From Geoalkalibacter sp. (GTDB lineage Bacteria; Desulfobacterota; Desulfuromonadia; Desulfuromonadales; Geoalkalibacteraceae), in assembly GCF_030605225.1 (NCBI RefSeq), contig NZ_JAUWAV010000028.1, positions 1 to 54,908 on the forward strand: a stretch of 54,908 nt of DNA, read 5' to 3'. Of this stretch, positions 2,338-20,483 are shown piece after piece (position 1 is the first letter of the stretch; each line of letters begins with the position of its first letter). The notes beneath the pieces are model-generated. The model was not told the origin of the DNA. It ran no database searches and worked only from the letters and a program-made list of their open reading frames with translations. Made by a program: the position numbers and the translations under genes.

Positions 2338-2364
2338 GAAAAAATTGAAAGGCAAATTCATTAT

Positions 2365-3632: not shown

Positions 3633-4983
3633 GCGGCAGCCCCAGATACCAGGTGGCGATGCTGAAATAGATGAGCACTCCCGAGATATCCGCCAGCGAG
3701 GTCACCAGCGGCGCGCTGGAGGTTGCAGGGTCCAGGCGCAGACGGGTCATCAGAAACGGCAGGGACATGCCGATCAAACTGCCGACCAGCACCACGACCA
3801 CCATGGTCAGGGCGACCACCACGGCGATATCCGGCCCGCCGCGAAACAGCCCGATGCAGGACACCGCCAGACCCATGCACAGGCCGATGACCAGGGCCAC
3901 GAACACTTCCCGACCGAGCAGCTGCAGCCAGTCGCGAAGCCGCACGTCGCCCACCGCCAGGGCGCGCACCATGAGCGTGGCGGACTGGGAACCCGCGTTG
4001 CCGCCGCTGTCGATGAGCAAGGGGAGAAAAAAGACCAACGCGACCGCTGCTGCGATGGTGTCCTCGAAATAGGCGATGCCCGCCCCGGAGAAAACGTTCA
4101 TCACCACCAGCACCAGCAGCCAGGGCAGGCGCTTGCGCACCAGCAGCCCGATGCTCGCGTCGCGCAGGCTGGTGGGCTCCAGGGACACCGAGCCCCCCAT
4201 GCGATGAAAATCGGTGGTGGCTTCGGCCTCGGTCACATCCTGGGCGTCATCGAAGGTGACGATGCCCACCAGGGCCTCGTTGCCGTTGGTCACCGGCAGG
4301 GCGATCAGGTCGTATTTGGCCAGCTTGCGGGCGACCTCCTCCTGCGGGTCGTCGACCCGGGCGGTGATCAGCTCGCGATGCATGAACTCCGCGACGCGGC
4401 TTTCGGGACGCGCCAGGATCAGATCCTTGAGGGATACCAGGCCCAGCAGGCGGCGCTGCCCGTCGATGACATAGGCGTAGTAGATGGTCTCCTTGTCGGG
4501 CGCCTCCAGACGCAGCTTTTCCAGGGCTTCGCGCGCCGTCAGGGAGGGGCTCAGGGTGGCATACTCCGAGGTCATGAGGGCGCCGGCGGTGCCTTCGCCA
4601 TAGGAGCCCAGCTTGCGGATGTCCTCGCGCTCGGCCTGGGCCAGCAGGTGCAGCACCCGATCGCTGCGCTCGGCGGGCAGATGCCGCACCAGATCGACGC
4701 GATCATCGGCATCCATGTGCGAGATCATGCGCGCCAGCTGTTCGTCGGCGAGCAGGGGAGCGATGTCGGCCTGATCGTCGGGACCCAGGTGGGAGAGCAC
4801 CCAGGCGCCCTGGTCGGAATCCAGGGCGGTGAGGACCCACGCCGCGTCGGCCGGTTCAAACTCGGCCAGCGCCGCGGCCAGATCGGCCTCGTGCAGGGGT
4901 GCGCAAAAGGCGCGTAGGGCCTGGGCGTCCCGGCGCAGGAGCAGCGCGCGGATCTCTTCGTGAAGTGGTGACGTGAAAAGCAT
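3622..4983 (-). CDS. mgtE: Magnesium transporter MgtE
   Basis: 453 residues in the MgtE order: N-terminal helical domain with repeated DPxD/LLxxE-like helices (about 20-125), two CBS domains (about 135-255), a connecting helix, then five membrane segments (about 285-450). The SGGNAGSQSATLMVRAL segment near residue 330 is the family signature of the pore region. MgtE is a homodimeric Mg2+ channel whose cytosolic domains sense Mg2+. It heads a two-gene operon with uppP and is preceded by a long leader with a hairpin at the ribosome binding site. Confidence 0.95.
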   Translation of the reverse strand: MLFTSPLHEEIRALLLRRDAQALRAFCAPLHEADLAAALAEFEPADAAWVLTALDSDQGAWVLSHLGPDDQADIAPLLADEQLARMISHMDADDRVDLVRHLPAERSDRVLHLLAQAEREDIRKLGSYGEGTAGALMTSEYATLSPSLTAREALEKLRLEAPDKETIYYAYVIDGQRRLLGLVSLKDLILARPESRVAEFMHRELITARVDDPQEEVARKLAKYDLIALPVTNGNEALVGIVTFDDAQDVTEAEATTDFHRMGGSVSLEPTSLRDASIGLLVRKRLPWLLVLVVMNVFSGAGIAYFEDTIAAAVALVFFLPLLIDSGGNAGSQSATLMVRALAVGDVRLRDWLQLLGREVFVALVIGLCMGLAVSCIGLFRGGPDIAVVVALTMVVVVLVGSLIGMSLPFLMTRLRLDPATSSAPLVTSLADISGVLIYFSIATWYLGLPHGS

Positions 4984-4987
4984 GGTT

Positions 4988-5040
4988 GACCTCCTGGTTC
5001 TTGCGTCCGCCGGACAGGCGAACGCCGGAGGTGAACCAGG
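4988..5040 (-). promoter_or_regulatory. Candidate mgtE leader hairpin masking the ribosome binding site
   Basis: On the minus strand the RNA just before the mgtE ATG can form an outer stem CCTGGTTC (5040-5033) with GAACCAGG (5000-4993). It encloses an inner 9-bp stem GCGTTCGCC (5025-5017) with GGCGGACGC (5011-5003), one G-U pair. The Shine-Dalgarno GGAGGT (4994-4989) abuts and partly overlaps the outer stem. A perfect complement, ACCTCC (5032-5027), lies inside the same element, so two mutually exclusive folds could expose or mask the site. It does not resemble the M-box consensus as I know it. Magnesium as the signal is inference from the downstream gene. Confidence 0.5.
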
Positions 5041-5215
5041 CCGAGGTCAGGCGGGCGGGTTCAACGCGGGCATCAATCCCTGGCGAGCGAACGCGGATGG
5101 GGAAAACGGACAAGACTGCGACCGACTGTCGTAACTGCCACTTTCGTCCATGAACGACTCCTGCAAGGGTTGAAAGATATGATCGGCCCCGGCGGACCGA
5201 TCGCCATCGACCTGA

Positions 5216-5368: not shown

Positions 5369-6763
5369 GTGATCCAAAGCCTGCTTCGCTACTCAAAAGT
5401 GCTTGAAATTGTCGGGGATATCCTGCGCGTGCGGGTGGTCGGCGCCGATGGAGCGGCGGGCGGACCGGCGCGCTTCGGCGATCTGGCCCTGGTGGAAAAC
5501 ATCGATGGGCGCCAGTCCCTGGCCCAGGTGATCGGTTTGGACCGCGACACGGTCACCCTGCAGGTCTTTGCCGGCACCAAGGGTCTGTCCACCCGCTGCG
5601 CGGTGCGTTTTCTCGGCCACCCCATGCAGGCGACCTATTCGGATAACATCCTCGGGCGGATTTTCAACGGTATCGGCCTGCCCCTGGACGGCGGCCCGGA
5701 TCTGTCCGCCGACGCCAAGGTCGAGATCGGCGGTCCGCCGGTCAACCCCATGCGCCGCCTCCTCGCCTCGCGCCTGATCCGCACCGATGTGCCCATGATC
5801 GATGTGTTCAACACCCTCGTCGAAAGCCAGAAAATCCCCATCTTTTCCGTGGCCGGCGAACCCTACAACAGTTTTCTGGCGCGCATCGGCATTCAGGCCG
5901 ATGCCGACGTGGTGATCTTTGGCGGCATGGGGCTGATTTTTGACGATTTTCATCTGTTTCGCAGCGCCTTCGAGGATGCCGGGGTGTTCGGCCGCACGGT
6001 GATGTTCGTCAATCAGGCCTCCGATCCGGTGGTCGAGCGCCTGCTGGTGCCCGACATGGCCCTGGCGGTGGCCGAGCGCTTCGCGGTGGAGGAATCCAAG
6101 CGGGTGCTGGTGCTGCTCACCGACATGACCGCCTTTGCCGACGCCATGAAGGAGATCGGCGTCGCCATGGATCAGGTGCCTTCCAATCGCGGCTACATGG
6201 GCGATCTGTATTCGCAACTGGCGCGGCGCTACGAAAAGGCCTGCGATTTTCGCGGCGGCGGATCGGTGACCATTCTATCGGTGACCACCATGCCGGGCGA
6301 CGACGTCACCCATCCGGTGCCCGACAACACGGGCTACATCACCGAAGGCCAGTTCTACCTGCACGAGGGGATGCTCGATCCCTTCGGCTCCTTGTCGCGC
6401 CTCAAGCAGCATGTCATCGGCAAGGCCACCCGCGAGGATCATGCGCAGATCATGAACACCCTGATCCGCTTTTACGCCGATGCGCGCGACGCCCGCCAGA
6501 AGCAGGCCATGGCCTTTGAGCTCTCGGCCTTCGACGAGCGCCTGCTGGTCTTCGGCGAACTGTTTCGCAAGCGCTTCATGCGCCTGGATGTGTCCATGCC
6601 GCTGGAGGAGGCGCTGGACCTGGGCTGGCGCACCCTGGCCGAATGTTTCGAGCCCGAGGAGCTGCTCATGAAGCAATCCCTGGTGGACAAGTACTATCCC
6701 CGCGAGGTGCGCGAGCAGCACCGCGGGCAAAATCCGGACAAATCGGGTACCGAGGGTCTCTGA
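5369..6763 (+). CDS. atpB: V-type ATP synthase subunit B
   Basis: 464 residues, regulatory (non-catalytic) nucleotide-site subunit of the V1 headpiece. It has the beta-barrel start (residues 1-75), the [21 protein letters not shown] region, and at the P-loop position [14 protein letters not shown] instead of GxxxxGKT, which is how B differs from A. The C-terminal helical part contains [23 protein letters not shown]. The start is GTG with a purine-rich CAGGGAG upstream. Its TGA overlaps the next ATG by one base. Symbols follow V-type usage (atpB = V-type B), not F-type. Confidence 0.95.
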
Positions 6764-7374
6764 TGGCCAAGATGTCCCTGAGCAAATCCGCGCTGCTCCA
6801 GGAAACGCGACAGTTGCAGAGCTTTCGCCGCTTTTTGCCGTCGCTGGATCTCAAGCGCCGCCAACTCATCGCCGAGCGCGCCAAGGCCCGCAAGGAGCTG
6901 GACGACGCCCTGGAGACGCAGGAGGAACTGCGCCGCTTCATCGCCCGCGAGCTGCCCATGCTGGCCAATCACGACGTGGAACTGCCGGAGATGCTGCGCC
7001 TCGAGGGGGTGGTGCTGGGCGAGGAGAACCTGCTCGGCACCCTGCTGCCCGTGCTGGAGAAGGTGCGGATCGCGCGCCGCCCCTACTCCCTATTGGCGCG
7101 CCCCCACTGGGTGGACCCGCTCATGGACAAATTGGCGGAGATGATCGAACTCGAGGTCGCCCGGCGCGTTCGCGAAATTCGTCTGGAGCGGCTGGACGCG
7201 GCGGTGCGCAAAATCACCCAGCGCGTGAATCTGTTCGACAAGGTTCTCATCCCCCGCAGCGAGGAGAGGATTCGCAAAATTCGCCTTCATCTGGCCGATG
7301 TGGAGCGCGCGGCGGTGGTGCGCGCCAAGATCTCCAAGTCGCGCCGGATCGCCCACGCGGAGACGAGCGCATGA
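6763..7374 (+). CDS. atpD: V-type ATP synthase subunit D
   Basis: 203 residues, central-stalk shaft of the V-type rotor. It is almost wholly helical with long coiled-coil ends (SKSALLQETRQLQSFRRFLPSLDLKRRQLIAERAKARKELDDAL; C-terminal EERIRKIRLHLADVERAAVVRAKISKSR). The KRRQLIAE segment is typical of subunit D. The ATG at 6763 overlaps the subunit B stop by one base; the frame is open further upstream only because it runs inside atpB. The stop overlaps the next start by four bases. Confidence 0.9.
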   Translation: MAKMSLSKSALLQETRQLQSFRRFLPSLDLKRRQLIAERAKARKELDDALETQEELRRFIARELPMLANHDVELPEMLRLEGVVLGEENLLGTLLPVLEKVRIARRPYSLLARPHWVDPLMDKLAEMIELEVARRVREIRLERLDAAVRKITQRVNLFDKVLIPRSEERIRKIRLHLADVERAAVVRAKISKSRRIAHAETSA

Positions 7375-9176
7375 GCATCGTCGCCCTGGAAAAAGTCACC
7401 CTGTGCGGGCCGCGCGCGGACAAGCCCGCGATCCTGGCCGCCCTGCAGGACTTGGGGCTGGTGCATCTGGTGTCCCTGCGGCCCGCCGCGCTGCGCGGCG
7501 AGGAACCCTCGGAGCGTCCCGAGGACGCCTATCGCGCCCTGCGCTGGCTGCTGGACAATCCGCAGCGGCGTCTGCAGGTCAGCGACGATCAGGAGTTCGA
7601 TTTCGACGCGGTGGTTCAGGCCGTCACGCACAACCGGCAAGCCCTCATCGAGACGCGCAACCGCCTGGAGCAGCTCCAGGCCCAACACCGGCTGCTCGAA
7701 CCCTGGGGGCGCTTCGATCCGCCCGCGGCGCACCAGTTGGGCGGCCTGCGTTTCTGGTATTACATCCTGCCCCTGAGCCAGTTCGAAGAGCTGGACAAGG
7801 AGGGCCTGACCTGGGCGGTGGTCAAGCGCGATCCACGGCAGGTGTTCCTGATCCTGATCGCCGAGCGCGAGCCGCCCCGCGGCCGCATGCCGGCGCGGCC
7901 GGTACCCATCGGCCATCTGTCCCTGGACCGGCTCGAGCATCTGATGGAGCGCGCCCGGCACCGCATCGAGGAACTGGAATTCGAGCGTCTCTCCCAGACC
8001 CGCTGGATCAGCCTGCTCAGCCGCGATCTGGCGCGTGCCGAGGACCGCGCCGCCCTGCATCACGCCGGGGCCGTCACCCGCGACGAACCCGGCCTGTTCG
8101 TGCTGCACGGCTGGCTGGCGCAAAAAGACCGCGCACGGGTGGAGGAATTCGCCGTGCAAGAGCGCATCGCCGCCTTCTTCGAGCCGCCCGCCCCCGACGA
8201 CCGCCCGCCGACGCTGCTCTCCAATCCGCCCCAGCTCGCCGCCGGAGAAGATCTGGCCGGATTTTTTCAAACGCCCGGCTACGCCGAATGGGATCCCTCG
8301 CGGGTCTTGTTTTTCTCCTTCGCCGCCTTTTTCGCCATGATCATCGCCGACGCCGGTTACGCGCTGCTGTTGTCCCTGGGCCTGCTGGCGTTCTGGAAGC
8401 GCCTCGGGCGCAAGCCCACCACCCGCAGGCTGCGCGGCCTGGCGTGCGCCATGCTCGGCGCGGCGGTGAGCTACGGCGTGCTGGTGGGCAGCTATTTCGG
8501 CGTCTCGCCGCCGCCGGGGAGCCTTGCGGCAACCCTGAAGATTCTGGATCTCAACGACTTCGACACCATGCTGCGCCTGTCGGTGTTCATCGGCACGGCC
8601 CATCTGCTGCTGGCCAACGCCCTTCGCGCCCGGCGCTATTGGCCGGCCAACACCGCCAGGACGTCCCTGGGCTGGAACGGAGTACTCATCGCCGGCTACA
8701 CCGCCTGGCTGGCGGCCACGGGCGTTGTTCCCGAAACGCTGCTGGTCGGCTGCTGGATCCTGGGCATCGCCTCGGTTCTGGCCATTTTCATCTGGGCCTC
8801 GGAGCGCGAAATCGCATCGGTCAAGGATGCCTTTCTGCGGTTGTTCGACGGGCTCGGCGCGCTGACCCGTCTGACCAAGGCCTTCGGCGACGTGCTCAGC
8901 TACATGCGCCTGTTCGCCCTGGGCTTGGCCAGCGCCTCACTGGCCCTGACCTTCAATCAGATTTCCGCGGATGTCGCCGCCGCCCTGCCCGGGCTGGGGA
9001 TGTTTCTCGCGGTTCTCATCCTGCTTCTCGGCCATGTGCTCAATCTCACGCTGGCGGTGGTCTCCGGCGTGGTGCACGGCCTGCGCCTGAATTTCATCGA
9101 GTTCTACACCTGGGGACTCTCCGACGAGGGCTACCCGTTTCGCCCGTTTCGCAAAAAGGAGATCCATTATGAATGA
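7371..9176 (+). CDS. atpI: V-type ATP synthase subunit I (membrane stator subunit)
   Basis: 601 residues. The N-terminal half (1-300) is a soluble stalk with paired helices (THNRQALIETRNRLEQLQAQHRLLEP; ERARHRIEELEFERLSQ). The C-terminal half (about 310-590) has about seven membrane segments, including SYMRLFALGLASASLALTFNQIS near residue 505, where the family carries the essential Arg of the ion half-channel. The end is GLRLNFIEFYTWGLSDEGYPFRPF, typical of the family. It couples ion flow to rotation with the K ring. It overlaps subunits D (ATGA) and K (8 bases). Confidence 0.9.
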   Translation: MSIVALEKVTLCGPRADKPAILAALQDLGLVHLVSLRPAALRGEEPSERPEDAYRALRWLLDNPQRRLQVSDDQEFDFDAVVQAVTHNRQALIETRNRLEQLQAQHRLLEPWGRFDPPAAHQLGGLRFWYYILPLSQFEELDKEGLTWAVVKRDPRQVFLILIAEREPPRGRMPARPVPIGHLSLDRLEHLMERARHRIEELEFERLSQTRWISLLSRDLARAEDRAALHHAGAVTRDEPGLFVLHGWLAQKDRARVEEFAVQERIAAFFEPPAPDDRPPTLLSNPPQLAAGEDLAGFFQTPGYAEWDPSRVLFFSFAAFFAMIIADAGYALLLSLGLLAFWKRLGRKPTTRRLRGLACAMLGAAVSYGVLVGSYFGVSPPPGSLAATLKILDLNDFDTMLRLSVFIGTAHLLLANALRARRYWPANTARTSLGWNGVLIAGYTAWLAATGVVPETLLVGCWILGIASVLAIFIWASEREIASVKDAFLRLFDGLGALTRLTKAFGDVLSYMRLFALGLASASLALTFNQISADVAAALPGLGMFLAVLILLLGHVLNLTLAVVSGVVHGLRLNFIEFYTWGLSDEGYPFRPFRKKEIHYE

Positions 9177-9615
9177 GTTCGTCATCGCCCTGGGCTGGCT
9201 CGGCCTCTACGCGCCCATGGCCCTGGGCGCGGTGGGCAGCATCATCGGCTGTGCCCTGGCCGGGCAGGCCGCCATCGGCGCCATGCTGGAAACCGAATCC
9301 GGCCACGGCAAGTATCTGGGCGTCTCGGCCATGCCTTCCTCGCAGCTGATTTACGGCATCGTGGTGATGTTCACCCTCAACCGCGAGATCACCGAAACGA
9401 CGGCCCCGGGGGTGTTCGGCATCGGTCTGCTGGCCGGTCTTGCGCTGCTCAGCAGCGCCGTCTACCAGGGCAAGACCTGCGCCTCGGCCATCAACGCCTC
9501 CAAGGCCAAGCCCGAGATTTTCGGTCTGTCCCTGGCCCCGTCGGCCATCGTGGAGGGCTTTGCGGTGTTCGCCTTCATTTTTGCCCTGGTGATCAGCGCC
9601 GGCATCCCCGGCTGA
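9169..9615 (+). CDS. atpK: V-type ATP synthase subunit K (proteolipid rotor ring)
   Basis: 148 residues with four membrane helices in two hairpins, the V-type proteolipid layout. Only the second hairpin has the ion-binding carboxylate (Glu129 in SAIVEGFAVFAF). Ser58-Gln59 (MPSSQLIYG) and Gln100 (VYQGK) fall where the Enterococcus hirae Na+-binding ring has Thr64-Gln65 and Gln110, with Glu129 matching Glu139. This suggests Na+ rather than H+ as coupling ion; that is inference from residue placement by eye. A strong AAGGAG precedes the ATG. Confidence 0.9.
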   Translation: MNEFVIALGWLGLYAPMALGAVGSIIGCALAGQAAIGAMLETESGHGKYLGVSAMPSSQLIYGIVVMFTLNREITETTAPGVFGIGLLAGLALLSSAVYQGKTCASAINASKAKPEIFGLSLAPSAIVEGFAVFAFIFALVISAGIPG

Positions 9616-9629
9616 CAAGGGAGAGCCTG

Positions 9630-10322
9630 ATGAACGACAAGCGCAACGCCCTGCCCCTGAGCAACGGCGTCGAGACCTTGATCGAGCGCCTGCGCGAGGA
9701 CGGAGTGGCCAAGGGCCGCCAGGAGGCCGAGCTGATCGTGCGCGACGCCGAGCATCGCGCCCAATGGCTGGTGTCCCAGGCGCAGGAGGAGGCCGAGCGG
9801 CTGCTCGCCGACGCCCGCGAGAAGAGTGAGCGCCTCAGGCGCTCCACCGAGGAGGCCTTGCAGGTGGCGGCGCGCGATGCGGTGCTCGATCTCAAATCCC
9901 ATCTCTCGGCCCAGTTCGCCGCCCAGGTGCGACGGCTGGTCAGCACGCGCATGTCCAACGAGGCGCTGCTGGAGAAGCTGATTCTGGAGTTGGCCGCGCG
10001 CGTGCGCGAGGATCTGCGCCTCGATGGGGCCGAGCGCCTGGAGGTGGTGCTGCCGCGCGACGTGATCGGCCTGGAGGAGCTGCGCCGTCGTCCCGAGCAG
10101 TTGAAAGAGGGCACGCTGAGTCATTTCGTGCTGGCGTTGGCCGAGGAGATGCTGCGCGCGGGCGTCGTCTTCACGGCCGCCGACGACGACAGGGGCGGCC
10201 TGCGGCTGCGCCTGAACGAGGGGGAGCTGGAAATCGACCTGAGCGACCAGGCGGTGGCCGCCCTGCTCATGGCCCATCTGCAACCGCGCTTTCGCGCCTT
10301 GTTGGAAGGAATCGTGCGATGA
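9630..10322 (+). CDS. atpE: V-type ATP synthase subunit E (peripheral stalk)
   Basis: 230 residues. A long charged helix rich in Glu/Arg/Ala (about 10-95, GRQEAELIVRDAEHRAQWLV onwards) is followed by a globular C-terminal domain that docks on the A/B head. This matches the E subunit of the peripheral stalk. No separate subunit G/H partner is seen in the operon. GGGAG lies 8 bases before the ATG. The stop overlaps the next gene (ATGA). Confidence 0.85.
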   Translation: MNDKRNALPLSNGVETLIERLREDGVAKGRQEAELIVRDAEHRAQWLVSQAQEEAERLLADAREKSERLRRSTEEALQVAARDAVLDLKSHLSAQFAAQVRRLVSTRMSNEALLEKLILELAARVREDLRLDGAERLEVVLPRDVIGLEELRRRPEQLKEGTLSHFVLALAEEMLRAGVVFTAADDDRGGLRLRLNEGELEIDLSDQAVAALLMAHLQPRFRALLEGIVR

Positions 10323-11011
10323 GCCTCATGGATGAGCCCTACACCATGCTCCTGGCGAGTCTGCCGCATCTGCCCGCGCCGGGCGCCGCCAAGGATCTGC
10401 CCATCACCCGCCTGCAACTGAGCAGCCGCCTCAAATGGCTGACCCCCGAGGACCAGCAGCGGCTGCAGCGGGTGGAGCAGGCCCTGCATTGGTCGCACCT
10501 GCCCATCGAGCTCAGCGACGAACAGGTCATCGCACGCGCGCAGGCGGCGCTGGAGGCGGTCGCTTGCGACTTTTTGCGCCCCATTCTTCTCGAACGGCTG
10601 GAGATGCGCACCCTCATCGCCGCCCTGCGGCGACGCGCCCGGGGCGAGACCCTGCCGCGCGAGCGCCCCTGGGGGCAGGGACGCTTCCTGCGGCGGATCG
10701 AAACCCATTACGCCGAACCGGATTTCGGCCTGGGGCATCTCTACCCCTGGCTCGCCCAGGCCCAGAAACACTTGCAGGCCGAGGAACCCCTGGAACTGGA
10801 GAATCTGTTGCTGACGCAATACTGGAAACAACTGGCTCGTGTCGATGATCCCCACGCCTTTGATTTTTCCGCCGTGACCCTTTATGTCCTGCGCTGGGAA
10901 ATTCTGCACCGCTCCCTCCGCCGGCAGCCCGAGGCCGCCGCGACGCGCTTCGACGCGCTGGTCGCGCAGGCCCTGGAGTCCTCGCCCGTTTCCCTGGAGG
11001 CCCTGGCATGA
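10319..11011 (+). CDS. DUF2764-like protein of the V-ATPase operon
   Basis: 230 residues, soluble, mostly helical. It has the start PYTMLLASLPHLPA, a central block LEMRTLIAALRRRARGE and a C-terminal TLYVLRWEILHRSLRR. Proteins of this type sit between subunits E and A in V-ATPase operons of Chlamydiae, spirochaetes and Bacteroidetes and are usually named DUF2764. It may take the place of subunit C, which links the rotor to the membrane ring; that role is inference. It overlaps its neighbours on both sides by ATGA, so it is translated with the complex. The assignment rests on context and general look. Confidence 0.7.
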   Translation: MSLMDEPYTMLLASLPHLPAPGAAKDLPITRLQLSSRLKWLTPEDQQRLQRVEQALHWSHLPIELSDEQVIARAQAALEAVACDFLRPILLERLEMRTLIAALRRRARGETLPRERPWGQGRFLRRIETHYAEPDFGLGHLYPWLAQAQKHLQAEEPLELENLLLTQYWKQLARVDDPHAFDFSAVTLYVLRWEILHRSLRRQPEAAATRFDALVAQALESSPVSLEALA

Positions 11012-12867
11012 AAAGCCCGACCCTGTCGACGGAGACGAACGTCCGGGTGCGGGCGGTGTCCGGGGACATCGTGACCATCGAGGTCGATCCGGCCGACGAA
11101 GGCGCCGCCCTGATGAAGAACGAGGTGGCGTACCTGATTGCCGGCAGCGGCGAGAAACTGCAAGCCGAAGTGCTCAAGGTGCACGGTCGGCTGGCCGTGG
11201 TGCAGGTGTTCGAGGACACACGCGGCCTGGCGGTGGGCGACAAGGTTCTGCTGACCGGCGAAATGCTCTCCGTGGAGTTGGGGCCGGGCCTGCTCTCGCA
11301 GGTGTTCGACGGCCTGCAGAACCCGCTGGAGAAAATCGCCGAGAGCCATGGCGTGTTCCTGCCGCGCGGCGCCGAAGTGGATCGTCTCGACCGCCGCCAG
11401 AAATGGTCGTTTGTCACCAGCGTGAAAACCGGAGACCACCTGTGGGCGGGCGACACCCTGGGCACCGTGCAGGAAGGCCGCTTTACCCATCGCATCATGG
11501 TGCCTTTCGATCAACGCGGCGCCGTTGAAGTGACCTGGATTCAGCAGGGCAACCTGACGGTGGATACGCCCATCGCCCGCATCCGACCGGTGGATGCCCC
11601 CCAGGCCGAGGAGCGCTCCCTGACCCTGATGCAGCGCTGGCCGGTGCGGCGGCCCCTGCCGGAGGATCTGCTGCGCTCCCGCAGGTGCCGGCGCGAATAC
11701 CCGAGCCGGCCCCTGGTCACCACCCTGCGGCTGATCGACACATTTTTTCCCATCGCCCTGGGCGGCACCGCCTGTATTCCCGGGCCCTTCGGCGCGGGCA
11801 AGACGGTCCTGCAAAACCTCATCAGCCGCTACTCGGCGGTGGATATCGTCATCGTCGTCGCCTGCGGCGAGCGCGCCGGGGAGGTGGTGGAGACCATCCA
11901 GGAGTTCCCCAAGCTCAGCGATCCCTTGACCGGCGGTTCACTCATGGATCGCACCATCATCCTGTGCAACACCTCCTCCATGCCCGTCGCGGCGCGCGAG
12001 GCCTCGATCTACACCGGCATCACCCTGGGCGAGTATTATCGGCAGATGGGTTTCGCCGTGCTGCTCATCGCCGACTCCACCTCGCGCTGGGCGCAGGCCA
12101 TGCGCGAAACCTCCGGGCGCATGGAGGAGATTCCCGGCGACGAGGCGTTTCCCGCCTATCTCGATTCGGCCATCCGCGGCGTCTATGAGCGCGCCGGCAT
12201 CATCCGTACCGCCGACGGCCGCGAAGGCAGTCTGACTCTCATCGGCACCGTTTCGCCGGCGGGCGGCAATTTCGAGGAGCCGGTCACCCAGTCGACCCTG
12301 GCCACGGTGAAAACCTTTCTCGGTCTCTCGGCCGATCGCGCCTACAAACGCTTCTATCCCTCGGTGGATCCGCTGTTGTCCTGGTCGCGCTATCTGCGGC
12401 AGCTCGCCCCCTGGTTCAACCGCGAAGTCGCGCCGGACTGGACCGAGCGCGTCGAACGCATGCTCGCGCTGCTCAAGGCGGGCGACGCCGTGCAGCAGAT
12501 GATGCAGGTGACCGGCGAGGAAGGCGTCACCCTGGCAGACTTCATCACCTACCAGCAGGCCATCTTTCTCGATCGGGTCTATCTGCAGCAGGATGCCTTT
12601 GACCCGGTGGATGTCTCGGTGCCCCTGGAGCGCCAGAAGGACGACTTTCTCCGCGTGATGCGCGCCGTCGAACAGGCGCCCCATCTGCCCGACAAGGAGG
12701 CCTTGCGCCGATACTACACGCGCCTGACCGGTTTGTTCAAAAACCTCAACTACACGCGCACGGACTCGCCGGACCACCAGCGCTACCTCAAGGAGATCGA
12801 GGCGGCGCTCAAGGGCGGCAAGACGTCGCCGCCCATGGCGGAACCAACGGCGCAGGCGGCGGATTAG
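11008..12867 (+). CDS. atpA: V-type ATP synthase subunit A (catalytic)
   Basis: 619 residues. It has a Walker A motif GPFGAGKT near residue 259, the non-homologous insert typical of V-type A subunits (about 115-200, WSFVTSVKTGDHLWAGDTLG), and the catalytic-site segments ACGERAGEVVET, LIADSTSRWAQAMRE and SLTLIGTVSPAGGNFEEPVTQ. It hydrolyses or makes ATP in the V1 head with subunit B. It is the last gene of the operon, whereas A usually precedes B. No clear terminator is seen after the TAG. Confidence 0.95.
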   Translation: MKSPTLSTETNVRVRAVSGDIVTIEVDPADEGAALMKNEVAYLIAGSGEKLQAEVLKVHGRLAVVQVFEDTRGLAVGDKVLLTGEMLSVELGPGLLSQVFDGLQNPLEKIAESHGVFLPRGAEVDRLDRRQKWSFVTSVKTGDHLWAGDTLGTVQEGRFTHRIMVPFDQRGAVEVTWIQQGNLTVDTPIARIRPVDAPQAEERSLTLMQRWPVRRPLPEDLLRSRRCRREYPSRPLVTTLRLIDTFFPIALGGTACIPGPFGAGKTVLQNLISRYSAVDIVIVVACGERAGEVVETIQEFPKLSDPLTGGSLMDRTIILCNTSSMPVAAREASIYTGITLGEYYRQMGFAVLLIADSTSRWAQAMRETSGRMEEIPGDEAFPAYLDSAIRGVYERAGIIRTADGREGSLTLIGTVSPAGGNFEEPVTQSTLATVKTFLGLSADRAYKRFYPSVDPLLSWSRYLRQLAPWFNREVAPDWTERVERMLALLKAGDAVQQMMQVTGEEGVTLADFITYQQAIFLDRVYLQQDAFDPVDVSVPLERQKDDFLRVMRAVEQAPHLPDKEALRRYYTRLTGLFKNLNYTRTDSPDHQRYLKEIEAALKGGKTSPPMAEPTAQAAD

Positions 12868-13031: not shown

Positions 13032-13364
13032 ATGCCGACCTATTACGACCCCGAGGACCTGAACCTTTTCACCAGCATCGGCAAGGACGCACCCGAACTC
13101 GCGCGCAAGTTCTTCGATTACTACGGCGCGGTATTTGCCGAAGGGGCGCTGAGCGCGCGGGAAAAAGCGCTCATCGCCCTCGCCGTCGCCCACACCGTGC
13201 AGTGCCCTTATTGCATCGACGCCTACACCCGCGCCTGCCTGGAACAGGGATCGGATCTCGAGGAAATGACCGAGGCCCTGCACGTGGCGGGCGCCATCCG
13301 CGGCGGAGCCACGTTGGTCCATGGCGTGCAGATGCGCAAGATCGCCGAGAAACTCAGCCTGTAG
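13032..13364 (+). CDS. Arsenosugar-associated AhpD/carboxymuconolactone-decarboxylase-like protein
   Basis: 110 residues, one AhpD-like domain. A redox CxxC (TVQCPYCIDAYTRACL, residues about 57-60) and downstream helix EALHVAGAIRGGATLVHG are visible. Small proteins of this kind are regularly encoded beside ArsS radical SAM enzymes and are called arsenosugar biosynthesis-associated peroxidase-like proteins. A thiol or peroxide role is likely but not shown. It is 12 bp before arsS and likely cotranscribed. The 164-bp gap upstream holds TTGAAC (12917) and TATAGG (12938) with a short 15-base spacer, a weak promoter candidate. Confidence 0.8.
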   Translation: MPTYYDPEDLNLFTSIGKDAPELARKFFDYYGAVFAEGALSAREKALIALAVAHTVQCPYCIDAYTRACLEQGSDLEEMTEALHVAGAIRGGATLVHGVQMRKIAEKLSL

Positions 13365-13376
13365 AGGAATCACATC

Positions 13377-14354
13377 ATGGGCGATCCGCAACCGACGGAC
13401 CTCGAACATTTCGCCTGCGCCCTGCGGCGCCGGGGCCTGAGCCTCAACCGCGGTCCGTGCCGCGCCCTGCAGATCAACGTCGGCCTGCTCTGCGATCTGG
13501 CCTGCCGCCACTGCCATCTGGAAGCCGGTCCAGGGCGCACGGAGGTGATGAGCGCCGCGACCATGGCCGAGGTGGTCGCCTTTGCCCGGCGCGGGTGCTT
13601 TGAACTGGTGGACATTACCGGCGGCGCACCGGAACTGGTGCCCGGCATCGCAAACTTCCTCGCGCAACTGTCCGAGGTCGCGCCCAAACTCATGCTGCGC
13701 TCCAACCTGACCGCCCTCGGCGGCCCCCAGGCTGAGCCCCTGCTGCAAACCTGCGTCAGCCGTCGCGTCGCCCTGGTGGTGTCGTTTCCCGCCCTGCGCG
13801 AAGCGCAGGTCCAGAGCCAGCGCGGCGCGGGCGTCTGGGAGAAAAGCCTGGCCATGCTGCGCCGCCTCAATGCCCTGGGCTATGGCCGCGAGGGTTCGGA
13901 TCTCGAACTCCATCTGGCGGTCAACCCCGGCGGCGCCTTTCTCCCCGCGGATCAGACGGCCACGGAGAAGCGCTACCGGCGCGAACTGCTCGCCCGTTGG
14001 GGCATTGTCTTCACCCGGCTCTTCACCCTGACCAACATGCCCCTTGGACGTTTCCGCCGCTGGCTGGAGCAGTCGGGCAATGACGCGGCCTACCTGCGCG
14101 CACTGGCGCAGGCCTTCAATGCGGCGACCCTCCCCGGCCTCATGTGCCGCGAGCAGCTCAGCGTCTCCTGGGACGGCCATGTTTTCGACTGCGATTTTCA
14201 TTTGGCCGCCGGCATCAGCCTGGGCGAAACCCGCACCCATGTGCGCGATCTGCCGGAGCCGCCCGCGCCGGGCACGCCCATCGCCGCCGCCGATCACTGC
14301 TATGCCTGCACCGCCGGCGCGGGCTTTACCTGAGGGGGCGAAATCGCGACCTAG
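13377..14354 (+). CDS. arsS: Arsenosugar biosynthesis radical SAM selenoprotein ArsS, TGA read as selenocysteine
   Basis: Radical SAM motif CxxxCxxC is visible as CDLACRHC (C39, C43, C46), with GGAPEL and the C-terminal Cys-rich region (LMCREQLSV, FDCDFHLAAGISLGE, HCYACTAGAG). ArsS acts after arsenite methylation in arsenosugar synthesis. The frame meets TGA at 14331 directly after TAGAGFT. Reading it as Sec gives FT-U-GGEIAT and then TAG at 14352-14354, 325 residues in all. Family members end in a similar Gly-Cys/Sec-Gly-Gly tail, and the family is known to include selenoproteins. A hairpin at the right distance follows the TGA. GAGG lies 8 bases before the ATG. If the TGA were a true stop, the product would be 318 residues without the last conserved residue. 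Confidence 0.82.
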
Positions 14355-14369
14355 TTGAGGTCGCCCCCC
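14334..14369 (+). promoter_or_regulatory. SECIS-like hairpin after the arsS TGA
   Basis: Twelve bases after the TGA begins the stem GCGACC (14346-14351) paired with GGTCGC (14359-14364), loop TAGTTGA (14352-14358). An outer GGGGG (14334-14338) pairs with CCCCC (14365-14369). Spacing of the apical hairpin and G-U in the loop fit bacterial SECIS elements bound by SelB. There is no T-run after it, so it is not an intrinsic terminator. The alternative stop TAG lies in the loop. Confidence 0.65.
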
Positions 14370-14388
14370 TATCCCCGGAGAACGTCCC

Positions 14389-16530
14389 TTGTTCGGCAAC
14401 GGCAAAAAACTCTGGATCGTCCTGGCCCTGGCGCTTGTGGTCGTGCTGTTTTTCAGCCTCGGCCTGCATCACTACCTCACCCTGGCCGAACTCAAGAGCC
14501 GCCAGGCGGCCTTTCAGCAGTACTACGCCGCCCATCGCGCCCTGTCCCTGGGGCTGTATTTCGCCCTCTACGTGCTGGTCACCGCCCTGTCCCTGCCCGG
14601 CGCGGCGGTCATGACCCTGGCCGGCGCCGCCCTGTTCGGCTTTTGGCCGGCCTTGCTCCTGGTCTCCTTCGCAAGCAGCATCGGCGCGACCCTGGCGTTT
14701 CTTATCAGCCGCTTTCTGCTGCGCGACTGGGTGCAGAGTCGCTTTGGCGAGCGGCTCCAGGCCCTCAACGCGGGCATCCGCACCGAGGGCGGTTTCTATC
14801 TGTTCACCCTGCGCCTGGTGCCGATTTTTCCCTTTTTCGTCATCAATCTGCTCATGGGCCTCACCCCCATGCGCACCCGCACCTATTACTGGGTCAGCCA
14901 GATCGGCATGCTGCCGGGCACGGCGGTCTACGTCAACGCCGGCACCCAGCTCGGGCAGATCGAACGCCTCGGCGGCATTCTCTCGCCCGGCCTGCTGCTG
15001 TCCTTCGCCCTGCTCGGCACTTTTCCCCTGCTCGCCCGCAAGGCCGTGGAGGTCGTGCGTCAGCGGCGCGCCCTCAAGGATTTTCCCCGGCCGAAGAGGT
15101 TTGATTACAACCTGGTGGTGCTCGGAGCCGGCGCGGCCGGACTGGTGAGCGCCTACATCGCGACGGCGGTCAAGGCCAGGGTGGCCCTCATCGAAAAGGA
15201 CCAGATGGGCGGCGACTGCCTCCATACGGGCTGCGTGCCGAGCAAGGCCCTGATCCGCTCGGCCAGGATGCTGGCCTACAGCCGCCGCGCCGAGGAGTTC
15301 GGCCTGCGCGGCGGCGCGGCCGCCGTGGATTTCGCCCGGGTGATGGAACGGGTGCGCGAGGTGGTGAAAAAGGTCGAACCGCACGATTCGGTGGAGCGCT
15401 ACACGGCGCTTGGCGTGGACTGCATTAAGGGCGCGGCGCGCATCAGCTCGCCCTACGCCGTCGAGGTGGCGGGACGCACCCTGACCACGCGCAGCATCAT
15501 CGTCGCCACGGGCGCCGAACCGATCGTGCCGTCCATCCCGGGCCTCGATCAGGTGGACTATCTGACCTCCACCAGCCTCTGGCAATTGCGCGACTTGCCG
15601 CAGCGCTTGCTGGTGCTCGGCGGCGGCCCCATCGGCTGCGAGCTGACCCAGGCTTTTGCGCGCTTCGGGTCTGAGGTGACGCAGGTGGACATGGCGCCAC
15701 GGCTTCTCATGCGCGAGGATCCGGAGGTCGCCGCGTTTCTGCGCACGCGTTTCGAATCCGAAGGCGTGCGCGTGCTCACCAACCACGCCGCCAAGGAAGT
15801 GAGAGTCGAGGAGGGGGAGAACATCCTGATGTGCGAGCATCAGGGACAAACAGTCGCGGTACCTTTCGACGCCATCCTGGTTGCCGTGGGTCGACGCGCC
15901 CGCACCACGGGATTCGGTCTGGAGGAGCTCGGCGTGCGCCTGAGCGAGGGCGGCACCCTCGATGCCGATCCCTTTCTGCGCACCAATTTTCCCAACATCT
16001 TCTGCGCGGGCGATGTGGCCGGTTCCTACCAGTTCACCCACATCGCCGCCCATCAGGCCTGGTACGCGGCAATCAACGCCCTGTTCGGCGACTTCAGGAA
16101 ATTCCGTGCCGATGATCGCCTCATTCCCTGGTGCACCTTCACCGACCCGGAAGTAGCCCGCGTCGGTCTCAGCGAAAGCGAGGCGCGGCAGCGCAACATC
16201 CCTCACGAAGTGACGCGCTTCGCTCTGGCGGAGCTTGATCGCGCCATCGCCGAGGGCGAGGAGCACGGCTGGGTGAAAATCCTCACGCCGCCCGGCAAGG
16301 ACCAAATCCTCGGCGTCACCATCGTCGGTCACCATGCCGGCGACCTGCTCGCCGAATACATCCTGGCCATGAAACACGGCCTGGGCCTCAACAAAATTTT
16401 CGCCACCATCCACCCCTACCCGACCCTCGCCGAAGCCAACAAGCTGGCCGCCGGAGAATGGAAAAAGGCCCATGCGCCGAAGAAACTGCTCAAATGGGTG
16501 GAGAAGTACCACGCCTGGCGGCGCGGATGA
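14389..16530 (+). CDS. TVP38/TMEM64 membrane domain fused to a mercuric-reductase-like flavin disulfide oxidoreductase
   Basis: 713 residues. Residues 1-225 form a VTT/TVP38-type membrane domain (AVMTLAGAALFGFWPALLLVSFASSIGATLAFLISRF; LRLVPIFPFFVINLLMGLTPM). Residues about 240-710 are a pyridine-nucleotide disulfide oxidoreductase: FAD site VVLGAGAAGLVSA, redox-active GGDCLHTGCVPSKAL, NAD(P) site VLGGGPIGCE, and a dimerisation domain ending HPYPTLAEANKLAAG. The C-terminal Cys pair of true mercuric reductase is absent, so Hg2+ reduction is not supported. The start is TTG with CCGGAG 8 bases before it, 34 bp after the Sec-extended arsS stop. The substrate is unknown; an arsenic-linked role is inference. 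Confidence 0.85.
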   Translation: MFGNGKKLWIVLALALVVVLFFSLGLHHYLTLAELKSRQAAFQQYYAAHRALSLGLYFALYVLVTALSLPGAAVMTLAGAALFGFWPALLLVSFASSIGATLAFLISRFLLRDWVQSRFGERLQALNAGIRTEGGFYLFTLRLVPIFPFFVINLLMGLTPMRTRTYYWVSQIGMLPGTAVYVNAGTQLGQIERLGGILSPGLLLSFALLGTFPLLARKAVEVVRQRRALKDFPRPKRFDYNLVVLGAGAAGLVSAYIATAVKARVALIEKDQMGGDCLHTGCVPSKALIRSARMLAYSRRAEEFGLRGGAAAVDFARVMERVREVVKKVEPHDSVERYTALGVDCIKGAARISSPYAVEVAGRTLTTRSIIVATGAEPIVPSIPGLDQVDYLTSTSLWQLRDLPQRLLVLGGGPIGCELTQAFARFGSEVTQVDMAPRLLMREDPEVAAFLRTRFESEGVRVLTNHAAKEVRVEEGENILMCEHQGQTVAVPFDAILVAVGRRARTTGFGLEELGVRLSEGGTLDADPFLRTNFPNIFCAGDVAGSYQFTHIAAHQAWYAAINALFGDFRKFRADDRLIPWCTFTDPEVARVGLSESEARQRNIPHEVTRFALAELDRAIAEGEEHGWVKILTPPGKDQILGVTIVGHHAGDLLAEYILAMKHGLGLNKIFATIHPYPTLAEANKLAAGEWKKAHAPKKLLKWVEKYHAWRRG

Positions 16531-16591: not shown

Positions 16592-17641
16592 TCATCGCAA
16601 CGCGCCCGTCGCCTGCACGCCGTAGCCGGGAAGCTCCGCCAGCAGCTTGCGGTAGGAGGGAGAACGAACCACCTCGATGAGCGCCCGCAGCCGGGGGTCC
16701 TCGGCCAGATGCGCGGGCAGGCAGAGATCGTAGGCCGTTTCGCGAATACCGAGGAAATCGACGGCCTCCTCCTCGCACACCAGCCGCACCGAGATGCCGG
16801 CCTGGGCGAAGCCGCTGCCGATGGCCTGGACGACGCCGCGATGGTCGCGAGCGAGGTAGGCGGGCTTGAGGCGTCCCTCGGTGAGCTCGTCGAACATCTG
16901 CCGGGCGCCGGAGCCCGGCTCCCGGCCGATCCAGCGCAAATCGGCGCGCAATGCGTGATCGACCCCGGCGGCGGCGAGACCGGGGGCGAGCGCCAGCCCC
17001 TCCTGCCAATCGGCCACGCGCAGCAGCCGAAAGGGCTCGCCGACCACCTCTCTCGCGGCCTTGAGATTGCCCTCGGGATGAGCCTCGCCCGCCAGGTGCA
17101 GACCGGCGGCGTGGACCAGGCCGGCGGCGAGCAGTTCCAGCCCGGCGCGACTGGAACGGGACAAGGCGAGCATGCGAAAGGGCGTCTGCCGGGCGTATTC
17201 GGCGGCCAGCAGGCCGACGGCGGGATCGCAGCAGGCCAGCACCAGCGTGCGCACGGGATCGGCGAAGGGGTGATCCGCGCAGCGGCCGTCGCGGAAGATG
17301 CCGTCGTGGGGAACGGTGCCGAGCGGGGTGGGCTCCACCGGATAGAGTAGGGAGCTCCCGCCGATCAGCGCCCGCCAGTACCGGCAGGGCTGCTTGGGCG
17401 GCGGCCAGGCCCACTGGCCCTGACTGGAATCGCCGAGGGCGAAGATGTCCTCCACGCGGCAGCCGAAGGCGGCGGCCAGGGCCAGGGCGGCGGCGGTGGA
17501 GGGAATCAGGCGTCCCGCCTCGATGGCGCTCACGCCGGTGCGCGACAGCCCGGCCCGCTCGGCGAGTTCCTGCTGCGACCAGCCGCGCTCCTCGCGCAGG
17601 CGCCGCACGGAATTGGTTATGATGAAATTTTCTTTTGACAT
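16592..17641 (-). CDS. XRE-type regulator with periplasmic-binding-like domain, probable molybdate regulator
   Basis: 349 residues. The N-terminal HTH_XRE (about 8-65: LREERGWSQQELAERAGLSRTGVSAIEAGR) is joined to a cytoplasmic PBP-like domain (about 120-340). The latter has LVLACCDPAVGLLAAE, REPGSGARQMFDEL and an end like ModA/TupA-type binding proteins. Such one-component regulators bind an oxyanion directly and take the place of ModE. It is divergent from modABC with 104 bp between starts, so it likely controls that operon and itself. I found no clear palindrome in the gap. Molybdate versus tungstate cannot be decided from sequence. Confidence 0.8.
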   Translation of the reverse strand: MSKENFIITNSVRRLREERGWSQQELAERAGLSRTGVSAIEAGRLIPSTAAALALAAAFGCRVEDIFALGDSSQGQWAWPPPKQPCRYWRALIGGSSLLYPVEPTPLGTVPHDGIFRDGRCADHPFADPVRTLVLACCDPAVGLLAAEYARQTPFRMLALSRSSRAGLELLAAGLVHAAGLHLAGEAHPEGNLKAAREVVGEPFRLLRVADWQEGLALAPGLAAAGVDHALRADLRWIGREPGSGARQMFDELTEGRLKPAYLARDHRGVVQAIGSGFAQAGISVRLVCEEEAVDFLGIRETAYDLCLPAHLAEDPRLRALIEVVRSPSYRKLLAELPGYGVQATGALR

Positions 17642-17745
17642 GATCCTGGAGGCTATGACACTATTCTGCCTGCGTCAAGGGCTATTTCCGCCAGCGTCGC
17701 CGGATCAGCTCCTCCCGTCCCCATCCACGCTGAAAGGAAACCGCC

Positions 17746-18522
17746 ATGAAAAAATCCATCCTGCTTTTCTGCCTTCTCTCCCTCTTTTCCTCTCCCGCCT
17801 GGGCCGCTGGCGACATTCTGATCGCCGCCGCCGCCGATCTGCAATTCGCCATGGACGATGTCGCGAAAGCCTTCCGCGAGGAACATCCGCGGATCGGGGT
17901 CAAGGTCAGCTACGGCTCCTCCGGCAATTTTTTCACTCAGATCCGCCAAGGCGCTCCCTTTGATCTGTATTTCTCCGCTGATCTGAAATACACCGAAATG
18001 CTTGAAGCGGAGGGATTCGCGGCGACCCCACCGAAACTCTACGCCGTGGGGCGCATCGTGCTGTGGACGCGCAAGGATTCGGGGCTCGATCCGACGCGCG
18101 GCCTGGAACTGGTGAACGACCCGGCCGTGCGCCGCTTCGCCATCGCCAATCCCGCCCACGCCCCCTACGGGGTGCGCGCCAGGGAAGCGTTGATGCACTA
18201 CGGGCATTGGGATCAGGTGCAGCCCAAGCTCGTCTTTGGCGAAAACATCTCCCAGACCGCCCAGTTCGTCCAGACCGGCAACGCCCAGGCGGGGATTCTG
18301 GCCCTGTCCCTGGCCATGGCGCCCGCCCTCAAGGACGGTCATTACTACCTGATTCCCGAGGAGGCGCACCTGCCGCTGGAGCAGGCCTTCATCGTCACCC
18401 GCCGGGCGCGGGATAATCCGGCGGCCAAGCTTTTCGCGGAATTCGTCGCCGGCGAACAGGCGCGCGCGATCCTCGCCGAATACGGCTTCGTGCTGCCGAC
18501 GCAACCCGTCCAAGGGCAATAA
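17746..18522 (+). CDS. modA: Molybdate ABC transporter substrate-binding protein ModA
   Basis: 258 residues with a signal peptide (MKKSILLFCLLSLFSSPAWA). The ModA fold follows: ILIAAAADLQFAMDDVAKAFRE, SYGSSGNFFTQIRQGAPFDLYFSAD, and HAPYGVRAREAL. It binds molybdate (or tungstate) in the periplasm and hands it to ModBC. AAAGGA precedes the ATG. It is first in the operon and only 2 bp from the next gene. Confidence 0.9.
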   Translation: MKKSILLFCLLSLFSSPAWAAGDILIAAAADLQFAMDDVAKAFREEHPRIGVKVSYGSSGNFFTQIRQGAPFDLYFSADLKYTEMLEAEGFAATPPKLYAVGRIVLWTRKDSGLDPTRGLELVNDPAVRRFAIANPAHAPYGVRAREALMHYGHWDQVQPKLVFGENISQTAQFVQTGNAQAGILALSLAMAPALKDGHYYLIPEEAHLPLEQAFIVTRRARDNPAAKLFAEFVAGEQARAILAEYGFVLPTQPVQGQ

Positions 18523-18524
18523 CC

Positions 18525-18932
18525 ATGAACCGGCTTCGCGGAATCGTCCGTGAGATCGACAGCCACGGCAGCATGTCGTTGGTGGAGATCGCCGTCCAGG
18601 GCGATCTCTTTTCCGCCTATGTGCTTGAAACGCCCCGCACCTGCGCCTACTTGCGCGAGGGGGCGCCCATCGATCTGCTGGTGAAGGAAACCGAGATCTC
18701 CCTTGCTCGCGCGCCGCTCGGCGCCATCAGCATGGGTAACTGTTTTTCGGCCCGGGTGCGCGCCGTCGAGGAAGGAAAGCTGCTGACGCAGGTCGTTCTC
18801 GACTACAAGGGGCTGCGCGTGACGGCGGTCCTCGGGGCAAGAGCCGTGCGCAGAATGCAGCTGGTTGCCGACGAAGAGGTGCTCTGGCTGTTCAAAAGCA
18901 CGGAGCTCACCCTGGCGGAGGCCCTGGCATGA
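18525..18932 (+). CDS. Mop/TOBE-domain molybdopterin/molybdate-binding protein
   Basis: 135 residues, apparently two TOBE/Mop-like beta domains. The first (about 1-62) runs LRGIVREIDSHGSMSLVEIAVQG to LLVKETEISLA. The second (about 68-132) runs ISMGNCFSARVRAVEEGKLLTQVVLDYKG to EEVLWLFKSTELTLAEA. Both end in the KxTEI/L-like strand typical of Mop. It may store molybdate or buffer it in the cytosol. It is encoded between modA and modB and overlaps modB by ATGA. Confidence 0.8.
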   Translation: MNRLRGIVREIDSHGSMSLVEIAVQGDLFSAYVLETPRTCAYLREGAPIDLLVKETEISLARAPLGAISMGNCFSARVRAVEEGKLLTQVVLDYKGLRVTAVLGARAVRRMQLVADEEVLWLFKSTELTLAEALA

Positions 18933-19597
18933 GCTACGATCCCACGCCGCTGCTGCTCAGTTTCGAGCTTGCCCTGATCAGTACCGCCATCCTGCTGGTC
19001 ATCGGCGTGCCCCTGGCCTGGTGGCTCGCCTTTTCCCGCAGCCGCGTCCAGCCCATCGCCGAAGCGCTCATTTCCATGCCCCTGGTCCTGCCGCCGACGG
19101 TTCTCGGCTTCTATCTGCTGCTGCTCTTCGGCAGGGGGAGCTGGTTGTGGGAACTGCTCGATCCCTGGGGGATTCATCTGGTCTTCACCTTCGAAGGGCT
19201 GGTGGTGGCCTCGGTCATCGCCAGCGTCCCCTTCATGGTGCATCCGCTGCAGTCGGGATTTCGCGCCGTGCCGGCCTCCCTGGTCGAGGCCTCCTACACC
19301 CTGGGCAAATCGCGCCTGACCACCCTGCTGCGCGTCCTGCTTCCCAACATGAAACCCGCCCTGCTGGCCGGCGTCATCCTCACCTTCGCCCACGTGGTGG
19401 GGGAATTCGGCGTGGTGCTGATGATCGGCGGCAGCATTCCGGGGGTGACCAAGGTGGCCTCCATCGCCATCTATGACGAGGTGCAGGCGCTCAATTTCGG
19501 CGCCGCCAACATGCACGCACTGATCCTCTTCGCCGTGACCTTCGCCGTGCTGCTCGTCATCTACGGCGTCAACCGCCGCTACTTCCGCCCCCTGTGA
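18929..19597 (+). CDS. modB: Molybdate ABC transporter permease ModB
   Basis: 222 residues with five to six membrane helices. The permease EAA-type loop is visible as ASLVEASYTLGKSRLTTLLRVLLPNMKPALLAG (about 110-145). SMPLVLPPTVLGFYLLLLFG and FAHVVGEFGVVLMIGGSIPG are strongly typical of ModB/CysW-type molybdate permeases. It forms the membrane channel with ModC. Confidence 0.93.
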   Translation: MSYDPTPLLLSFELALISTAILLVIGVPLAWWLAFSRSRVQPIAEALISMPLVLPPTVLGFYLLLLFGRGSWLWELLDPWGIHLVFTFEGLVVASVIASVPFMVHPLQSGFRAVPASLVEASYTLGKSRLTTLLRVLLPNMKPALLAGVILTFAHVVGEFGVVLMIGGSIPGVTKVASIAIYDEVQALNFGAANMHALILFAVTFAVLLVIYGVNRRYFRPL

Positions 19598-19604
19598 GGA
19601 CGTC

Positions 19605-20483
19605 ATGATCCGCATGCAGATCCGCAAGCGCCTGCACATGGCGACCGGCGACACCGATCTCGACCTCGATATCGGCATCGGCTCCGGAGAACTGGTGACC
19701 TTTTTCGGCCCTTCCGGCGCGGGTAAGACCACGGCCCTGAGGATTCTGGCCGGGCTCACCGAGGCCGACGCGGGAGTGATCAAGGTCGACGGCCGGATCT
19801 GGTTCGACAGCGCGCGCCGCTTCTCCCTTGCGCCCCAGCAGCGCGGGGTCGGGTTCGTCTTCCAGGACTACGCCCTGTTCCCCAACATGACGGTGCGCGA
19901 GAATCTGCGCTATGCCCTGTCCGACCGCGGCGAGCTCCGACTGATCGACGAACTTATGGAGATCATGGAGTTGGGCAGTCTCGCCGAGCGCCGCCCGCGG
20001 CAGCTCTCCGGCGGGCAGCAGCAGCGCGTGGCGCTGGCGCGCGCCCTGGCGCGCCGCCCCAAGCTCCTGCTTCTGGACGAGCCCCTGTCGGCCCTCGACC
20101 TCGCCCTGCGGCTGAAACTTCAGGACGATCTGCTCGAGGTCCACCGCCGCTTCGGCATCACGACGATCCTGGTCAGCCATGACCTCTCCGAGGTGTTTCG
20201 CCTCTCGCACCGCGTCTTCGTCATGGAGCATGGGCAACTCAAGCGCAGCGGCGCCCCCATCGATGTCTTCAGCGACCGGCGGTTGAGCGGAAAGTTCAAG
20301 CTGCTGGGGGAAATCGTCGCCATGGCGCGCGAGGATCTGGTCCAGGTCATCACGCTGCTGGTGGGAAACAGCATCGTCAAGGTGGTCGCCACCGAGGAGG
20401 AGGCCAAGACCCTCAACCTCGGCGACAAAGTGCTGATCGCCTCCAAGGCCTTCAACCCGCTGCTCGTCAAGGTCAATGCCTGA
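19605..20483 (+). CDS. modC: Molybdate ABC transporter ATP-binding protein ModC
   Basis: 292 residues. It carries Walker A GPSGAGKT (near residue 36), the signature LSGGQQQRVALARAL, Walker B LLLLDEPLSALD and the switch His in LVSHDLSEV. A C-terminal TOBE-like part (about 230-292) is probably involved in molybdate feedback. GAGG lies before the ATG. It ends 15 bp from the convergent glmS stop; no T-rich terminator is seen there. Confidence 0.92.
   Translation: MIRMQIRKRLHMATGDTDLDLDIGIGSGELVTFFGPSGAGKTTALRILAGLTEADAGVIKVDGRIWFDSARRFSLAPQQRGVGFVFQDYALFPNMTVRENLRYALSDRGELRLIDELMEIMELGSLAERRPRQLSGGQQQRVALARALARRPKLLLLDEPLSALDLALRLKLQDDLLEVHRRFGITTILVSHDLSEVFRLSHRVFVMEHGQLKRSGAPIDVFSDRRLSGKFKLLGEIVAMAREDLVQVITLLVGNSIVKVVATEEEAKTLNLGDKVLIASKAFNPLLVKVNA

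Follow-up and report, generated by a model that had tools for sequence, protein, structure and literature searches.

The arsS gene of Geoalkalibacter sp. almost certainly encodes a selenoprotein, in which the in-frame TGA at 14331-14333 would be read as selenocysteine 319 (Sec319), judging from the sequence of the gene and of its relatives. All coordinates refer to the window, the whole 54,908-nucleotide stretch that was analyzed (NCBI RefSeq assembly GCF_030605225.1, contig NZ_JAUWAV010000028.1, positions 1 to 54,908 of the forward strand). The capacity of the ArsS family for Sec is already known, and the arsS gene described here adds a member: in the tables of two reviews, the entry "Radical SAM domain protein, TIGR04167" stands among the predicted selenoproteins, exemplified by AAR34688.1 (PMC9312934, PMC13188914), and one of them gives the family motif as GxxU, citing Zhang and Gladyshev 2005 (PMC13188914). 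These tables and the NCBIfam title of the family bear out the preliminary description, which had called the family known for Cys or Sec near the C terminus. Among the titles listed by a literature search on ArsS and selenoproteins, none seemed to be devoted to the ArsS enzyme, and TIGR04167 was named in the two reviews. Because the family already stands in catalogs as a (seleno)protein, the discovery is a modest one. The correct arsS gene model would be 325 aa with Sec319, and a truncated annotation deletes a residue kept as Cys or Sec in 92/92 loci sampled.

The arsS reading frame and its homologs

13377-14354, + strand: arsS with TGA readthrough, 325 aa, TAG stop at 14352-14354 (TIGR04167, 358.7 bits; DUF3641, 162.8 bits)
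13491-13514, + strand: radical SAM CxxxCxxC motif (C39, C43, C46), with all three Cys kept in 91/91 other aligned loci
14145-14192, + strand: C257-x9-G-x4-C272, with C257 and C272 kept in 91/91 other loci
14298-14309, + strand: C308-x2-C311, with both Cys kept in 91/91 other loci
14331-14333, + strand: putative Sec codon TGA (Sec319); GFTU fits the family motif GxxU (from the frame and the homolog column)

The arsS frame opens at ATG 13377, reaches the TGA after ...HCYACTAGAGFT, continues as GGEIAT, and ends at TAG 14352-14354, as the preliminary description had reported and as is seen in the letters. A standard gene caller had been expected to drop seven residues from the product; indeed, the mechanical open reading frame listing gives arsS 318 aa, compared to 325 aa with TGA readthrough, so that seven residues are lost. 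The shorter product is compatible with the TGA being an ordinary stop, in which case ArsS would end at residue 318 and the hairpin that follows would be a terminator or a chance fold. We consider this very improbable, because the protein letters past the TGA are conserved and the same column holds Cys in homologs.

The readthrough product matched TIGR04167, "arsenosugar biosynthesis radical SAM (seleno)protein ArsS," at 358.7 bits (cutoff of 300), over residues 24 to 323 and profile positions 3 to 303 of 303, and thus across residue 319. Among Pfam families, DUF3641 was found in the same product at 162.8 bits, and the radical SAM domain fell just below its cutoff (27.1 versus 29.5 bits). No second ArsS was found in the genome, where the next-best matches to the protein scored at most 30 bits. 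The product shares with the TIGR04167 ArsS family (AAR34688.1 being the example in the two reviews) the radical SAM and DUF3641 regions, a C-terminal CxxCTAGxGxx[C/U], and the GxxU motif. No essential difference was seen: FT replaces SS before the Cys/Sec position, as it does in 45/45 Sec loci.

TIGR04167 was found above its cutoff in 159 of 293 related genomes. From the matches listed we took all 43 with one TGA, together with the 30 best-scoring and 17 lower-scoring matches without TGA (90 in all); six named loci were added, five duplicates were dropped, and the window was included, which gave 92 distinct loci. Among these listed matches, the column of residue 319 is TGA in 45 distinct loci (window included) and TGC or TGT in 47. 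A homolog column holding neither Cys nor Sec would have spoken against the selenoprotein reading; what we found instead was Cys in 47 loci and TGA in 45. Gly stands at position +2 after this residue in 45/45 Sec and 47/47 Cys loci.

Seven Cys (C39, C43, C46, C257, C272, C308, and C311) are invariant in 91/91 other loci; residue 319 was entered as Cys in this alignment, and its own support is the codon count. We take the SPASM/Twitch auxiliary cluster motif to be Cx9-15Gx4C followed by further Cys. The stretch C257-x9-G-x4-C272 resembles the start of such a motif, with the later Cys spaced differently and the structure model unreliable there. In an AlphaFold2 model built from seven alignment rows, mean pLDDT was 72.7 and values were below 50 at residues 39 to 53 and 310 to 322; therefore, the predicted structure cannot place Sec319. 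No relative with a solved structure was found by sequence at an E value of 1e-5. The product would be an ArsS-type radical SAM enzyme. An auxiliary iron-sulfur cluster could be bound by its C257, C272, C308, and C311, and Sec319 might be one more soft ligand or the selenol to which a trivalent arsenic substrate binds. Of these roles the likeliest, we infer, is that of a soft ligand beside the four invariant Cys.

The selenoprotein reading also depends on a genome that can make and insert Sec. The genome (3.71 Mb, 89 contigs, 99.96% complete) carries a tRNA-Sec whose anticodon is UCA (75.6 bits; cutoff of 47) and selA, selB, and selD (603.8, 388.4, and 361.5 bits, respectively, each above its cutoff), the three genes being adjacent on one contig. 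All parts of the machinery whose absence would have counted against Sec are therefore present above their cutoffs. selD carries an in-frame TGA of its own (GUAAK), and the gene for formate dehydrogenase-N alpha, just downstream, has another (U189; TIGR01553, 1,324.9 bits; cutoff of 814.2). Readthrough of the arsS TGA as some other amino acid, for example by suppression and without selenium, would be compatible with the open frame taken by itself. However, Cys occupies the column in 47/47 Cys-type loci, the genome has Sec machinery, and the hairpin fits the SECIS model given in PMC13188914; we consider such readthrough even less probable than an ordinary stop. A second match to the tRNA-Sec model lay barely above the cutoff (genome G000, contig C4, 80728-80812; 48.9 versus 47 bits) and could be a different tRNA whose variable arm is long.

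The predicted SECIS hairpin and the TAG stop

14346-14364, + strand: predicted bacterial SECIS hairpin, 7-bp stem, loop AGUUG at 14353-14357, TGA-loop spacing of 19 nt (from the fold, register counts, and covariation)
14352-14354, + strand: predicted true stop TAG, whose T is the final base of the 5' stem arm and whose AG forms loop bases 1 and 2 (from the frame, the fold, and locus counts)

Insertion of Sec by SelB and a SECIS element is an established mechanism. At UGA 14331, SelB with Sec-tRNA(Sec) would be held by the hairpin 12 nt downstream; Sec319 would be inserted, six more codons would be translated, and translation would stop at the UAG within the hairpin. The arms of the hairpin lie at 14346-14352 and 14358-14364, and its first base is 12 nt past the TGA. 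The preliminary description had placed a 6-bp stem with a 7-base loop 12 bases past the TGA: the position was right, and the dimensions are instead 7 bp and 5 nt, a top U-A pair having been omitted. A 45-nt stretch starting at the TGA folds at -21.9 kcal/mol (z of -3.49; 0/200 shuffles equal), and the signal is diluted over an 81-nt stretch (z of -1.07; 25/200 shuffles fold equally well). An outer stem that had also been proposed does fold in the window genome (14333-14338 with 14365-14370) and is absent from relatives, as judged by eye on the alignment; it is therefore treated as incidental. An Rfam scan of the window gave no family above its cutoff, and ARAGORN found no tRNA there.

The constraints listed for bacterial SECIS elements are a loop of 3 to 9 nt, an upper stem of 4 to 16 bp, G in loop position 1 or 2, a spacing of 16 to 37 nt, and a fold energy of -7.5 kcal/mol or below (PMC13188914). 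The window hairpin falls within all of them, with a loop of 5 nt, a stem of 7 bp, G second in the loop and followed by U, a spacing of 19 nt, and -21.9 kcal/mol per 45 nt. It differs from the model as given there in that it includes the gene's own TAG stop.

A SECIS hairpin sets the Sec loci apart from the Cys loci, and it does so with compensatory changes. In the exact register, meaning that of the window hairpin with a loop of 4 or 5 nt, 33/45 Sec loci (window included) pair at 7/7 positions and 10/45 at 6/7; the two others, L065 and L074, each with a one-base indel, reach at least 6/7 only with a one-base shift, which brings the count to 45/45. In contrast, 0/47 Cys loci pair at 7 and 3/47, by chance, at 6 positions in the exact register (6/47 at 6 if a shift is allowed), and the 10 Cys loci within the Sec clade pair at 3 to 5 of 7, with none above 5. 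Over the inner 22-nt span, the mean fold z was -3.48 for Sec loci compared to +0.09 for Cys loci (mononucleotide shuffles). A loose hairpin picker accepted 44/45 Sec loci and 12/47 Cys loci, including Cys loci L023 and L032 at a spacing of 18; its one Sec miss, L089, does have the hairpin, and a longer one elsewhere was preferred.

The test for compensatory changes covered 43/45 Sec loci, with L065 and L074 excluded because of their one-base indel. A pooled RNAalifold run on the 45 Sec tails predicted no consensus pairs because 4-nt and 5-nt loops were mixed ungapped, and the loci were therefore split by loop length. Loci whose loop has 4 nt (n = 24) had 98.8% of their stem cells paired and 17 double-change cells (shuffled mean of 4.0); those whose loop has 5 nt (n = 19) had 94.0% paired and 27 double-change cells (shuffled mean of 7.8). 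None of 500 shuffles matched either set in paired cells, double-change cells, or covariation score, although kinship among the loci means that these shuffle tests overstate significance. Slid registers paired at only 22 to 53%. Pairs changed on both sides numbered three in the 4-nt set, which is no excess (262/500 shuffles reach it), compared to 6/500 shuffles for the 5-nt set, and further pair types were moderately unusual (28/500 and 40/500 shuffles for the 4-nt and 5-nt sets, respectively).

These data bear on whether the fold could be a terminator behind an ordinary stop. The hairpin and the GC-rich outer stem are stable and sited at the end of the gene, as a terminator would be. However, no T run follows the hairpin on its 3' side, and the hairpin covaries at a fixed distance from the TGA in the 45 TGA loci and not in the Cys loci.

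By the predicted fold, one triplet, TAG, would serve two jobs, as the termination codon and as part of the SECIS. Among loci with a Sec/Cys-to-stop distance of 21 nt, TAG is the stop in 35/36 Sec loci and in 7/32 Cys loci (Fisher P = 2.8e-11, a value that is too small given the relatedness of the loci). The near fixation of TAG in Sec loci would be explained by its AG opening the loop where the SECIS model wants G, and no new mechanism is needed. A stop codon within the ArsS SECIS is not mentioned in the passages of PMC13188914, PMC9312934, and PMC12159101 that were consulted.

Phylogeny, the AhpD-like partner, and the arsenosugar pathway

13032-13364, + strand: AhpD-like partner of arsS (CPYC), TIGR04169 arsenosugar biosynthesis-associated peroxidase-like protein (190.5 bits; cutoff of 120)

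A tree built by a quick method without the C-terminal motif, and carrying a long-branch warning, grouped all 45 Sec rows and 10 of the Cys rows in a single clade (SH-aLRT of 100; stem of 0.67 changes per column); the remaining Cys rows, 36 plus the long row L029 (37 Cys loci), fell outside it. Three changes between Sec and Cys, in either direction, are needed on this tree, and the starred branches force at least two. Because this clade holds both Sec and Cys copies, it offers a natural test of the benefit of selenium in a radical SAM arsenic enzyme.

The AhpD-like gene adjoining arsS is the sole TIGR04169 match above the cutoff in the genome. Lying directly 5' of arsS and scoring above the curated cutoff, it agrees with the family perox_w_seleSAM, with no difference seen. 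Such a gene is upstream in 41/44 other Sec loci compared to 9/47 Cys loci (a few of which have short flanks), and eight of these nine are in the Sec clade. The CPYC motif is without Sec in the window and in those Sec-type loci that have the partner.

A passage of PMC12159101 citing Cheng et al. 2021 describes the adenosylation of arsenic, as part of oxo-arsenosugar biosynthesis, as the work of a radical SAM enzyme. The ArsS characterized there has the family name in common with the window protein, and it is from that name and from this passage that arsenosugar synthesis by ArsS is taken. It differs in that the window genome is without arsM above the cutoff, leaving substrate supply unproven: the best match to the arsenite methyltransferase ArsM model NF008823 scored 53.4 bits (cutoff of 263), although this model passes in just 8/293 relatives, so that another type of methyltransferase could be missed. 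An arsenosugar role is therefore doubtful in this genome.

We also tallied ArsM-like matches by hand, with the Cys genomes being those of loci L022 to L051, G107 belonging to both sets, and frames of about 1,000 aa excluded. The idea that genomes with Sec-type ArsS are special in missing ArsM was dropped: matches of at least 140 bits occurred in 11/44 Sec and 10/30 Cys genomes, and at 150 bits the counts were 11/44 and 8/30, respectively. Such matches are uncommon whichever kind of ArsS is present, and they do not separate the Sec from the Cys type. ArsM-like matches in frames of 241 to 331 aa with one in-frame TGA were seen in G084, G107, G121, G282, G210, G149, G012, G195, G188, and G020; these are possibly Sec-type arsenite methyltransferases. 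In locus L132, a frame at 2041-5091 encodes 1,016 aa, apparently with a radical SAM domain N-terminal to an ArsM-like methyltransferase domain, and ArsM-matching frames of about 1,000 aa recur in many relatives.

Taken with its AhpD-like partner, the Sec clade might have left the arsenosugar pathway to act on another arsenical or a soft electrophile, in which case ArsS would be a misleading name. This alternative concerns function and can coexist with the selenoprotein explanation. The separation of the clade from the other 37 Cys loci, the uneven distribution of the AhpD-like gene, and the lack of arsM above the cutoff in the window's own genome are consistent with it. However, ArsM-like matches of at least 140 bits are about equally rare in both sets of genomes, the seven Cys positions and residue 319 are common to both groups, the window protein scores above the TIGR04167 equivalog cutoff, and the tree is a quick one with a long-branch warning. 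We therefore regard a changed function as possible but doubtful. Less likely still is a joint reading, in which UAG would be fixed since its A and G are loop bases read by SelB, placing Sec insertion and the stop six codons on under mutual constraint, and in which the selenol of the AhpD-tied Sec clade would be an arsenic(III) ligand acting on a substrate other than a dimethylarsenic compound.

Other genes at the locus

14389-16530, + strand: VTT membrane domain fused to a pyridine nucleotide-disulfide oxidoreductase, 713 aa (from Pfam; homologs lie 3' of arsS)

In the five nearest relatives, a homolog of the VTT-oxidoreductase fusion lies within 100 bases past the Sec codon (G001, G003, G005, and G037) or at 664 bases (G002). 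The oxidoreductase part of the fusion resembles mercuric reductase and lipoamide dehydrogenase. On the 5' side, 164 bases separate the AhpD-like gene from the end of a V-type ATPase cluster at 5369-12867, whose subunits A and E are assigned by family match and the rest from the letters and the gene order. At loci L128 and L129, from two same-genus genomes, the upstream position is occupied by a gene related to peroxidases and one for a TetR-like regulator, not by a V-type ATPase. Farther downstream, at 16592-20483, a helix-turn-helix regulator with a PBP-like domain on the minus strand adjoins a solute-binding protein, with a permease and an ATPase recognized from the letters only; this locus may serve molybdate or tungstate uptake.
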